A stretch of 64,000 nt of DNA from Candidatus Gastranaerophilales bacterium. GTDB taxonomy: Bacteria; Cyanobacteriota; Vampirovibrionia; Gastranaerophilales; Gastranaerophilaceae. The DNA lies in NCBI GenBank assembly GCA_947594025.1, contig CANQDZ010000001.1:124001-188000 (forward strand), given 5' to 3'. The notes beneath the pieces are model-generated. The model was given only the letters and a program-made list of their open reading frames with translations, was not told where the DNA came from and did no database searches. Positions 60,223-63,761 of the stretch are shown here, piece by piece (within the stretch, counting starts at the first letter, position 1; each line of letters starts with the position of its first letter). Made by a program: the position numbers and the translations under genes.

Positions 60223-60480
60223 TTATGCAACGGCAGGTGCATTTTTCAGACGCTTTGTCTTGCAATACTGAATACTCGGAGTAATTGCATTCAGGCAGGT
60301 TGAATGGAGTTTTTGCTGAATGTCGAGCATAGATTTTTGCATTGACGCATAATCATTCATTGCATCATACATTTTATTAGGATCAACCATTGAATTGCCG
60401 ACAATTGGATTATCAACTCTTAAAGAATTGTATTTCTTAACTAAAGCAATATCAAGGGTATCTTTTGCTCCTATTCCCAT
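60223..60480 (-). CDS. Small helical protein of unknown function
   Basis: 85 residues from ATG 60480, with GGGAG 7 bases upstream. Starts MGIGAKDTLDIALVKKYNSL and contains YDAMNDYASMQKSMLDIQQKL; two helices likely. No family recognised. A longer reading from TTG 60555 would run through the promoter and is unlikely. It has its own promoter region with a perfect palindrome. Confidence 0.6.
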   Translation of the reverse strand: MGIGAKDTLDIALVKKYNSLRVDNPIVGNSMVDPNKMYDAMNDYASMQKSMLDIQQKLHSTCLNAITPSIQYCKTKRLKNAPAVA

Positions 60481-60516
60481 AATCTTTCTCCCTGTAAAAT
60501 TTATATCCTGCTTCCT

Positions 60517-60555
60517 ATACTTTATTAAAGTATTTTTTGTGTAAATAATTGACAA
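60517..60555 (-). promoter_or_regulatory. Promoter with 17-bp palindrome
   Basis: Minus strand TTGTCA (60550-60555), 17 bases, TACTTT (60527-60532). The -10 lies inside the perfect palindrome ATACTTTA-A-TAAAGTAT (60517-60533), a candidate operator for a dimeric regulator controlling the gene at 60223. Confidence 0.45.
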
Positions 60556-60560
60556 AATGA

Positions 60561-60596
60561 AACGCAGTCCGTTAACATTTCGTTACAAACTGCGTT
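60561..60596 (-). terminator. Inverted repeat, candidate terminator
   Basis: AACGCAGT and ACTGCGTT form an 8-bp stem with a 20-base loop, followed on the minus strand by TCATTTTG. It lies after the stop of the long gene at 60638. The T-run is poor, so efficiency is doubtful. Confidence 0.4.
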
Positions 60597-60637: not shown

Positions 60638-63595
60638 TTATTTTGTTGTATTGTTTGGTGTTTGAGGTGCCGCTTGTGGTGCAGATGCAGCTTGAGGTGC
60701 AGGTGCAGGTGCAGCTTGTGGTGCAGGTGCCTTTTGAGGTGCCGCTTGAGGCGCAGGTGCAGGTGTCGGCACAGCTTGTGGTGCGGGTGCAGCTTGAGGT
60801 GCGGGTGCAGCTTGAGGTGCGGGTGCAGCTTGAGGTGCAGAAGGAGTAAAGCTATCCGCTTCTTTTTTGATTTTTCTTCTGTGGATTGCATAAACACCGC
60901 CAACAACGGCTGCTGCGATACCAACCGCGCCTGCGACTTTTCCTTTAAACGGAATATTATCTAAGAATTTTGCAGCTTTTTTGCCTGCATTATCCGCAAG
61001 GTCTTCGGCCGCATCCGTTGCAGTATCAAGTCCTTGTTCGATAGCTGCTTTAATGCCTTTTGTTTGTTCGGTTGCGCCTTCTATTATTGCTTCTGCAGCT
61101 TTTTGTGCTTGTTTTTCTTCATCGATTATACTTTGAATAAGTTCTCTGTTTATAACACCTTCCTTGGGCGCCACTGAAGTAGCTTCATCGGTAAAGCCTT
61201 GGAAGAAATGTTTTTTATAGCTGTCAAATGCAGAGTTAACGCCGTCGTTAATTGCATTATTGTTATCCCAATCAGCTTTTAGAGCTGCAGCGTTGAATTG
61301 CATTTGTTTTAATTCATCATCCGTAAGTTTTGTTGCTTTGGCGAATTGTTCCGCAATGTCATCTGACATTACTTCATCTCTGTATTTTCTGGTTGCTTTT
61401 TCTACAATCTCGCTTGATTGTGCTTTAGCTCTAACTGCATCGGTAGTAGTATCTGTACCAAGTTCTTTTTGAGCTTGCTCAAGTGCTTCATGATAAGCAT
61501 TCATATATTCTTTGCCTGCGGCAGTTTGGTCAAGTTCGCTCGTTGACATTTCTAAAGGATTAATGTCGTAAAAACCGCGTTGTGTTCTTAAACCTGTAGC
61601 AACATCAATGTTATTTCCGTCAAATTCCGTGATTGTACTTTTCATACCGCCCGTGTTTGTACCAAGAACGGCACCCCCTCTTGCGTATTCTTCTTGAGGA
61701 GTAAGTCCGCAAGGTTCAAAACGGCTTGAGAATACACCAAAGTCAGAAGCAGAACCCATTGCTGAAGCAGGTCCCCAACCGTCAATGTATGCAAAACGTC
61801 CTTTTAATTCAGGCATTTGAGCTAAATCATCAACAATTTTTTGAATTGCCTTACCTTCAGCATTAGGTTGAAGTCCGCCGCAGATAACAAAGATTGATTT
61901 TTTATCATCCGCACCTGATTTTACATATTTTTTAACGCCCATTAGAAGTTCATCGATACCTTTTTGGAAATCACCTCTGCCCCAGCTTGCAAACAATCTT
62001 GCATTATCATCTTGAACCGCTTTTAATGTGCTTTCATCAAGCGTGCTTGTAATTTTTGCACCCTTGCCAAATACACCGGTTACAAGATCAATTGGTTTCA
62101 TACCTTCGGGTAAAGTGTCTGCTTGAACAGTTTGGTGTTTAACCAATCTTTCCAAGAAATTAAGTTTATTTGCCTTTTTAACATTGCTTATTTCATCGGC
62201 ACTTAATTTTTTAGGGTCAAATGTAAGCATAGGCTTAACTTCGGTGCCATCTGCATATTTGATTGGTCTTTCTAAACCTTCAAAGAAATTTTTGTGGTAA
62301 AGCTTTGAAGCTGTGGGCGAAATTTGGCTCATTTCATCGGGAGCGGCAAGTCCGTTTGTAACGCCTTGAAGTGTTCCGTTTTGGCTTAAAGCTTTCATAT
62401 GTTCTGTAAGACCTAATGCAAATTCAGGATTTTCGGCACATTCTTTTGCATAACCCGGTGATACCGTTGCAACTTTGATATATCCTTGTTCGCCGAGAGA
62501 GATAGGAAGCATGCTCGGGTTAATTGTGTCTAATTCATCCACAAGACCGGGCATTAAATCTCTCCAGAATTGTTTTTGTTCTGCCGCAGCATTTGCACCT
62601 TCTCTTGTAAATAAGTTCATATAACGTTTGCTGTTTACAACAGTTTCAAATTCTTCCGGAGTAGCAAGTGACTTAAATATATCAAGCGGTCTTGCTTCAA
62701 CACCTTGATAACCGCCGCGACCTGCATTGTGGAAAATGTATCCGACATTCATTTCTTTATATAAAGGATTTCCCTTGCTTGCTTCTTCTCTTATAAAGTT
62801 TAACGCACCGCTTGAGTGCCAATCGTGAATTACAACATTTCGAGGATCAAAGTTTTCAAAACCCGGCGCATTTTTTAAATGAGGCATGCCTTCAATACTT
62901 GCTTTTGCGAATTCCGTATAATTTTCGTATAAGCCTCCGCCTAAATAGCCAAAACCTGTATCGGCATAGGGCACTTGCATTGCTGCTGTTTTAGGTGATT
63001 GAACCATAAGCAGTTTAGCAACCCCTTCTCTCGGTTTATATTCGTCAGGAATTAAGTGTGTTGCGTCAAATATTTTGCAAGCAACATCTTCTGCCGCTTT
63101 ACTATCCATGTTATTTCCTTTAATAGTGTATCTTGCAACTTCGTTTAATTCTTGCAATTGATTGCTTGGATTTCTAAATTGCGGCTTGCCGTTTTTCATA
63201 ACGGTATCCACGGATATCGGATTCCCATCAGGACCGTTTGTTATTTCGCCGTTATAGTATGGCATAACAAATACGTGTTCAACATTACTTTTATATTCGG
63301 GGAATTTCTTAACCCAATCCGCTATAACTGTTGCAACACCACCCTTTTTAAGAACAACACCTTCGGGCATGATGTGTAAAACCTGATTTGGGTTTCCGCC
63401 TTTAAATGACAATGTAAGAGATGGCTTATTGGCGCTATTTACTTGCGATTTACCAATATTTGCGACGCCTGCGCTTGCCTCTTTGGAAATCTCTTTTAAG
63501 TCTTCGCGAACACATTGTGCTTTACTGTTTGACGCGGCAAAACTGGCATTAACATTGTTTTTCGCATCTGTTAATTGTACACGGTTAACTTTCAT
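60638..63595 (-). CDS. Starch/glycogen-synthase-like protein with membrane helix and Ala-Pro-Gln tail
   Basis: 985 residues. Residues 62-66 are LSFKG, preceded by a polar leader with no signal peptide. The GT-B (GT5-like) body starts VLHIMPEGVVLKKGGVATVI (KKGG in place of KxGGL), has VIHDWHSSGALNF, then the donor-site SSRFEPCGLTPQEEYARGGAVLG, the hallmark of glycogen synthases with its E-x7-E glutamates. Helical linkers follow, then one membrane helix (about 887-904, VAGAVGIAAAVVGGVYAI), a basic stop RRKIKK, and a 69-residue APQ-rich tail. Such anchoring is not usual for GlgA. GAGG precedes the ATG. Enzyme activity is not proven. Confidence 0.75.
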   Translation of the reverse strand: MKVNRVQLTDAKNNVNASFAASNSKAQCVREDLKEISKEASAGVANIGKSQVNSANKPSLTLSFKGGNPNQVLHIMPEGVVLKKGGVATVIADWVKKFPEYKSNVEHVFVMPYYNGEITNGPDGNPISVDTVMKNGKPQFRNPSNQLQELNEVARYTIKGNNMDSKAAEDVACKIFDATHLIPDEYKPREGVAKLLMVQSPKTAAMQVPYADTGFGYLGGGLYENYTEFAKASIEGMPHLKNAPGFENFDPRNVVIHDWHSSGALNFIREEASKGNPLYKEMNVGYIFHNAGRGGYQGVEARPLDIFKSLATPEEFETVVNSKRYMNLFTREGANAAAEQKQFWRDLMPGLVDELDTINPSMLPISLGEQGYIKVATVSPGYAKECAENPEFALGLTEHMKALSQNGTLQGVTNGLAAPDEMSQISPTASKLYHKNFFEGLERPIKYADGTEVKPMLTFDPKKLSADEISNVKKANKLNFLERLVKHQTVQADTLPEGMKPIDLVTGVFGKGAKITSTLDESTLKAVQDDNARLFASWGRGDFQKGIDELLMGVKKYVKSGADDKKSIFVICGGLQPNAEGKAIQKIVDDLAQMPELKGRFAYIDGWGPASAMGSASDFGVFSSRFEPCGLTPQEEYARGGAVLGTNTGGMKSTITEFDGNNIDVATGLRTQRGFYDINPLEMSTSELDQTAAGKEYMNAYHEALEQAQKELGTDTTTDAVRAKAQSSEIVEKATRKYRDEVMSDDIAEQFAKATKLTDDELKQMQFNAAALKADWDNNNAINDGVNSAFDSYKKHFFQGFTDEATSVAPKEGVINRELIQSIIDEEKQAQKAAEAIIEGATEQTKGIKAAIEQGLDTATDAAEDLADNAGKKAAKFLDNIPFKGKVAGAVGIAAAVVGGVYAIHRRKIKKEADSFTPSAPQAAPAPQAAPAPQAAPAPQAVPTPAPAPQAAPQKAPAPQAAPAPAPQAASAPQAAPQTPNNTTK
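60641..60847 (-). repeat. In-frame tandem repeats encoding the APQAAP tail
   Basis: An 18-base unit (coding APQAAP) is repeated, most cleanly three times near 60780-60840, with degenerate copies to the stop codon. It codes residues 917-985, an extended proline-rich tail. Such repeats can change copy number by slippage. Confidence 0.75.
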
Positions 63596-63761
63596 AAAAA
63601 CCTCATCCTATTTTAAATAACAACACTGCTTATATCCTAAATAAACACAAAAATAAAAAAAATTGCCCTATTTTTACAAAAAAGATACAATTCTAAACAT
63701 GTTGCAAATAATAATCGGCTGATTTTTTAATATCGGAATAATTTCATTTAAAAAATTGACG

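Follow-up and report, generated by a model that had tools for sequence, protein, structure and literature searches.

The window, a stretch of 64,000 nucleotides from a Candidatus Gastranaerophilales bacterium, contains on its minus strand an ATG-initiated open reading frame (60638-63595) encoding a GlgA-like protein of 985 residues, the features of which are collected in Table 1. An original prediction described this protein as possessing an N-terminal LSFKG tag, one late membrane helix, and an APQ-repeat tail, and each element is found, at residues 62-66, about 887-905, and 906-985, respectively. Likewise, the reported change of the first-domain motif KxGGL to KKGGV is found at residues 83-87, with the lysine retained. 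The segment at about residues 887-905 is the sole hydrophobic helix in the protein (mean Kyte-Doolittle value of 1.83 over 19 residues), and the tail is composed of 72% P/Q/A, the DNA encoding it containing imperfect tandem repeats of 12 to 60 bp. Specifically, the extra length of the protein is made up of the 61-residue leader, insertions in both GT-B halves, the linker, the helix, and the tail. Directly downstream lies a small frame of 110 residues (60223-60555, minus strand) that yields the peptide QDINFTGRK only with a TTG start inside a terminator-like stretch; because INFTG requires this start, the frame was left out of the set of tagged proteins discussed below.

Table 1. Features of the gene for the 985-residue GlgA-like protein and its flanks, in window coordinates
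Feature	Position	Strand	Basis
CDS, GlgA-like protein (985 aa)	60638..63595	-	Open reading frame and Pfam
Shine-Dalgarno-like AGGATGAGG, 5 nt before the ATG; good ribosome-binding site	63601..63609	-	Read from sequence
Leader, residues 1-61, N-terminal, low complexity	63413..63595	-	Q/P/N/S-rich leader composition in 16 tagged proteins; weak conservation between relatives
LSFKG tag, residues 62-66	63398..63412	-	Phe64/Gly66 conservation; genome-wide N-terminal enrichment
GT5 N-terminal (acceptor-side) domain, residues 72-398; contains KKGGV, HDWH, FHN	62402..63382	-	Pfam Glyco_transf_5 and residue mapping
GT-B C-terminal nucleotide-sugar domain, residues 528-659	61619..62014	-	Pfam Glycos_transf_1
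RGDFQK, R540 to K545, corresponding to E. coli R300/K305	61961..61978	-	E. coli GlgA alignment; both invariant in 15 relatives
SRFEPCGLTPQEE, residues 624-636; E627 corresponds to E377, E635 is the second Glu of EX7E	61688..61726	-	Residue mapping and family alignment
Helical linker, residues 801-886	60938..61195	-	Helical in low-confidence model; no domain match
C-terminal hydrophobic helix, residues 887-905, flanked on both sides by basic residues	60881..60937	-	Hydropathy; same position in 29/31 relatives
APQ-rich tail, residues 906-985	60641..60880	-	Composition; among 31 relatives common only to L005
Terminator-like 8-bp inverted repeat (AACGCAGT...ACTGCGTT) 3' of the CDS stop	60561..60596	-	Read from sequence, unscored

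A lineage-specific GT5 paralogue and its active site

The description of the window protein as a starch-synthase-like GT-B protein holds at the level of sequence. Pfam Glyco_transf_5 (PF08323) matches residues 72-398 (3.7e-10, 40.3 bits against a cut-off of 22.7) and Glycos_transf_1 (PF00534) matches residues 528-659 (5.3e-7, 29.8 bits against a cut-off of 26.4), and because both halves are covered by matches over cut-off, the GT-B relationship is far beyond chance. When hhalign was used to compare a profile of 15 family members with canonical GlgA from this order, the alignment extended over 421 columns (99.9% probability, E 2.7e-31), so that at the sequence level a fold unlike GT-B is not indicated; searched against the PDB, the same family profile matched granule-bound starch synthase and glycogen synthases, the best match being 6gng (5.6e-26). 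A full-length structure prediction based on an alignment of only two sequences reached a pLDDT of 34.5, too low to confirm the fold. As judged from these profile matches, the window protein is a member of the GT5 glycogen/starch synthase superfamily. Its best NCBIfam family is TIGR02095 (glgA), with a score of 70.6 bits that is far under the cut-off of 328, and it follows that donor and product may differ from those of canonical GlgA.

The genome from which the window derives (1.51 Mb, 52 contigs) also carries a canonical GlgA, split across two contig ends and starting approximately 5 kb from the window gene, as well as a canonical GlgC scoring over cut-off and a glucan phosphorylase-like gene. 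The presence of separate canonical GlgA and GlgC, both of which are untagged, indicates that the window gene is an extra copy and not the normal glycogen synthase. Within the named genome collection, the sole full-length relative belongs to a Gastranaerophilales bacterium from goat colon and is 47% identical. At an E-value of at most 0.001, relatives were matched in 127 of the 146 genomes of the order, a figure that mixes long and canonical forms and is an upper bound, since canonical GlgA accounts for some of the weak matches. In a 69-row tree, canonical GlgA and the long GlgA-like proteins are split by one branch with a support of 100. Thus, the window protein shares with bacterial GlgA (GT5; TIGR02095, PF08323) both GT-B halves, the donor-site residues that were checked, and the 421-column profile alignment, but differs from it in length (985 versus about 480 residues), in its insertions, leader, tag, helix, and tail, and in its separate branch of the tree; by these sequence comparisons it is a GT5 paralogue belonging to a lineage-specific family apart from canonical GlgA.

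A survey of 31 relatives separates the features that are general to this family from those that are not. The C-terminal helix, Ala/Gly-rich and with basic residues on either side, is found in 29 of the 31 and is absent from the two proteins of genus g31 in family f7. The tag and the helix of the original prediction therefore extend across the family; the tail does not, ranging from 13 to 80 residues in length and being APQ-rich only in the window protein and L005 (2/31), and the APQ tail was accordingly rejected as a family feature. In a second group of relatives the helix lies N-terminal to the catalytic domain instead, with a P/A/Q-rich stretch adjoining it in several members. The C-terminal helix would place the window protein at a membrane; a fixed membrane topology was dropped from consideration given the basic residues on both sides of the helix and the N-terminal helix of the second group.

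Residues of the active site were mapped by alignment with E. coli GlgA, the numbering of which is used here. The window protein retains K15, H161, N246, R300, K305, and E377, along with DWH at 137-139, C379, and the GG of the 400-401 region. In published structures, H161, N246, R300, K305, and E377, and also Lys15, contact ADP-glucose (PMC7137382, PMC6210743). The donor-site lysine and arginine and the two glutamates to which the original prediction had drawn attention are all present (K15, R300, K305, E377 as E627 of the window protein, and E635, the second Glu of the EX7E motif), and no loss of donor-binding residues is seen in this alignment. Across the 15-sequence family alignment R540, K545, and E635 of the window protein are invariant, and E627 varies. 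Specifically, one subclade of relatives has SRFAPCEL in place of SRFEPCGL, amounting to E377A and a Gly-to-Glu change three residues on, and another subclade has lost the first lysine, K15. Since these sister subclades lack E377 or K15, glucan synthesis cannot account for the family in its entirety.

Two genomes of genus g31 in family f7 (G007 and G013; 99% complete) are informative in this regard, as their sole GT5 protein is the GlgA-like form with all checked residues intact; neither a canonical GlgA nor a GlgC over cut-off was found in either genome, leaving tagged versions only. That the GlgA-like protein is the only GT5 protein in these genomes is the best genomic argument for proteins of the window type being active. 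The window protein is predicted probably to be an active glucan synthase, a reading favored by the retention of all checked residues and by the extent of the GlgA alignment, and some of its cousins look like cases of fold reuse. The choice originally posed between a membrane-tethered glucan synthase and a protein that reuses the fold thus dissolves into two answers that apply to different members, the first suiting the window protein by its residues and the second suiting the subclades with E377A or without K15, with membrane location and activity remaining predictions.

The N-terminal tag and the proteins that carry it

The pattern h-[STN]-F-[TKSRGAN]-G occurs within the first 60 residues of 19 proteins of the window genome, compared with 2.7 expected from internal stretches, and the density of the motif drops about fivefold or more past residue 80. 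When the five pattern elements were permuted in all 120 ways, the real order gave the highest number (24), the runner-up reaching 14 and the median being 7. In the sample from a second genome, belonging to another family, six proteins are tagged versus 1.2 expected. Among the GlgA-like proteins, Phe64 is one of 32 invariant columns in the alignment of 15 sequences (members 23-47% identical to the window protein) and Gly66 is present in 13 of the 15 diverse relatives, with the surrounding leader hardly conserved. A simple pattern finds the motif in 27 of 31 GlgA-like proteins, one of the 27 being the first beta strand and not the tag, versus one of 24 canonical GlgA proteins. The leaders of 16 tagged proteins of the window genome are rich in Q/P/N/S and poor in L/D/E, and the motif borders such disordered leaders and also occurs in internal loops of proteins with multiple transmembrane segments. 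The sequence h-[STN]-F-x-G is a genuine signature of protein N-termini, and its position before unrelated folds argues against a structural role as part of the GT-B domain. Among the papers on the order that were searched, none describes such a tag by title or abstract, an absence that is no proof of novelty.

The list of tagged proteins, obtained by pattern search followed by hand curation, includes four that are carbohydrate enzymes by family or motif: the GlgA-like protein, a GlgC-like protein, a phosphohexomutase, and a GH13-like protein, a grouping of sugar enzymes that was noticed post hoc and without a formal test. The GlgC-like protein (L036:5110-6909) is an NTP_transferase of 599 residues whose best NCBIfam model is glgC, at 47 bits and below cut-off; its orthologues are found in a few families of the order. 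The phosphohexomutase is nearest to GlmM-type models, and both it and the tagged nucleotidyltransferase are patchy across the order. The GH13-like protein (L076:6002-9808, minus strand) has 1268 residues and no Pfam family, and its assignment is a motif reading, by eye, of the regions RFDAAKD, ISEITNLW, and NNHDK; a PDB search returned only a marginal neopullulanase match (E 2.8). Of 79 genomes of the order, 70 contain relatives of this protein, and all 14 genes for which the N-terminus is complete carry the tag, in the looser form h-x-F-x-G; two of the 14 are near-identical copies. In one genome of the order, two GlgA-like genes, a tagged nucleotidyltransferase, and a tagged protein with four transmembrane segments stand in a row (G006, contig C9).

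Further tagged proteins include an AAA/M41 protease, a DEAD-box helicase, multi-transmembrane proteins, and proteins without a known family. The helicase (DEAD-box/DSHCT) and the protease (FtsH-like, without a predicted membrane segment) are encoded by neighboring genes (L080:11490-17025, minus strand). Two look-alike multi-transmembrane proteins (L055:1064-2029 and L068:14577-16055) carry SFxG at the N-terminus and repeat it in internal loops. One tagged protein (L083:16361-18373) displays by eye a calpain-like pattern (GDCFLVS ... KHAY ... NPW), and this reading, like a kinase-like reading also made by eye, found no support in a PDB search. Another, from G013 (L234:2208-3023), has a weak match to the PARP catalytic domain (PF00644, 2.6e-4) that falls below cut-off.

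Genes that bear upon the destination of these proteins were also inventoried, in part for the flagellar genes. FHIPEP, the FlhA-type export gate, is matched in 79 of 79 genomes of the order and is full length in nearly all. The window genome encodes FlhA, FliF, FliE, and FliH together on contig C15 and FlgB/FlgC/FlgF-G-like rod proteins on contig C24. Full-length FHIPEP occurs as two kinds in most genomes of families f2-f7 (E about 1e-264 and 1e-213) and as only one kind in most of f1 (about 1e-217), the copy of the window genome lying at G000:C15:14027-16000. Many Gastranaerophilales possess partial flagellar gene sets, and MEL.A1 lacks the filament and the P/L rings (PMC3787301, PMC4040986). 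Neither BMC shell (PF00936) nor encapsulin (PF04454) genes were matched in the window genome, and a classical protein-shell compartment with the tagged proteins as its cargo is therefore excluded.

A proposed second glucan pathway and competing explanations

It is proposed that this lineage possesses a leader-tagged, membrane-associated second glucan pathway. The window protein would be a competent GT5 alpha-glucan synthase paralogue that is held at a membrane, placed by its leader and tag, and working with co-tagged sugar enzymes, a reading to which a probability of about one half is assigned. Under this proposal, the C-terminal helix would hold the GlgA-like protein at the membrane and the leader and h-[STN]-F-x-G tag would target it to a specific site within the cell or on its surface, where it would extend an alpha-1,4-glucan from a nucleotide sugar, most likely ADP-glucose. 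The tagged phosphohexomutase may supply glucose-1-phosphate, from which the tagged GlgC-like nucleotidyltransferase may produce the sugar donor, and the giant GH13-like protein may act on the glucan by trimming or branching it; ordinary glycogen in the cytoplasm would be left to the canonical, untagged GlgA and GlgC. We infer activity, donor, membrane insertion, joint function of the tagged enzymes, and the meaning of the tag from the genes described above.

The alternatives differ primarily in what they make of the tag. It is possible, if tentative, that SFxG is a short linear motif that docks its carriers in the cytoplasm onto a scaffold, a granule surface, or a membrane protein, producing an inner-membrane metabolon without export. 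Such docking agrees with the occurrence of the motif both at disordered-leader edges and in multi-transmembrane loops, with the predominance of large cytoplasmic-type enzymes among the tagged proteins, and with the exclusion of a classical shell by the lack of BMC and encapsulin genes, but no scaffold or binding partner was identified. Export is considered less likely but is a serious candidate: here the leader and SFxG would form a secretion signal for a flagellar-type (type III) apparatus, the enzymes would act outside or in another cell, and the helix would enter a target or envelope membrane. The order-wide presence of FHIPEP, the FlhA/FliF/FliE/FliH and rod proteins of the window genome, and the partial flagellar sets of many Gastranaerophilales (PMC3787301, PMC4040986) favor this possibility, as do the Q/P/N/S-rich, L/D/E-poor leaders, the effector-like types among the tagged proteins (PARP-like below cut-off, calpain-like and kinase-like by eye, and multi-transmembrane), and the precedent of Chlamydia trachomatis, in which GlgA and a phosphoglucomutase carry type III signals (PMC4829429, PMC9251005). 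Opposed to it are the presence of the motif in internal loops of multi-transmembrane proteins, the lack of PDB support for the calpain-like and kinase-like readings, and the finding that families f10-f12, outside the order, possess FHIPEP yet have no GlgA-like match. No such consensus is known for type III signals, which also counts against export. Because nothing here shows export and because the motif is found in loops, docking is weighted somewhat above it. An extended version, in which the tag is a dedicated targeting signal that sends the whole second glucan set, along with effector-like proteins, through a reduced export apparatus of flagellar origin and glucan synthesis thereby takes place outside the cytoplasm, is slightly less likely still.

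Two other explanations dispense with either synthesis or targeting. The GlgA-like protein might reuse the fold as a regulatory or structural pseudo-enzyme, as do plant noncanonical starch synthases, and the subclade with E377A and the Gly-to-Glu change and that without K15 suit this idea; for the window protein it is improbable, as this protein and its closest relatives keep every checked residue, and the sole GT5 protein of the two near-complete f7 genomes is of the GlgA-like form. Least probable is that the protein is an ordinary divergent paralogue, its leader and tag having no targeting role and the tag merely marking the start of the domain. The tag does stand directly before the first GT-B strand, and the residues that follow are moderately conserved, but the same motif lies ahead of unrelated folds, is well separated from the catalytic domain in those GT5 relatives whose helix is N-terminal, and is a feature that canonical GlgA lacks (1/24 by regular expression versus 27/31).

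Known systems and implications

The proposed second glucan pathway has a close counterpart in C. trachomatis, in which glycogen enzymes are exported by type III secretion, one phosphoglucomutase having gained such a signal (PMC4829429, PMC9251005). In both cases a glycogen enzyme set, including in Chlamydia GlgA and the phosphoglucomutase CT295, has acquired an N-terminal targeting signal (PMC4829429, PMC9251005), with the targeting function of the tag being the proposed element here. The systems differ in that the Gastranaerophilales proteins, known from genes alone, display a recognizable sequence tag, are enlarged paralogues beside canonical copies, and possess a C-terminal helix; moreover, GlgC alone lacks a signal in C. 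trachomatis, whereas here a GlgC-like enzyme is tagged. Granule-bound and other starch synthases, which provide the best PDB profile match, offer a further comparison, as starch synthesis in plants is put at membranes by partner proteins (PMC10801857). Plants employ separate tethering proteins, whereas in the window protein the helix is part of the same polypeptide. Flagellar basal bodies that lack a filament may be kept for export, as in Buchnera. Similarly, many members of this order conserve partial flagellar sets that do not amount to a complete flagellum, but here a link between such structures and the tagged proteins is conjectural.

The tag on several sugar-handling enzymes suggests a second glycogen-making set that is sent to one particular place. 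Should the tag prove to be a targeting signal, it would define an undescribed class of protein routing in a cyanobacteria-related gut lineage that is common but poorly cultured, and would predict where to look for its destination. If true, Chlamydia would be joined by a second case in which glycogen enzymes have been redirected as a group, and the partial flagellar gene complements of these bacteria would have a possible use.
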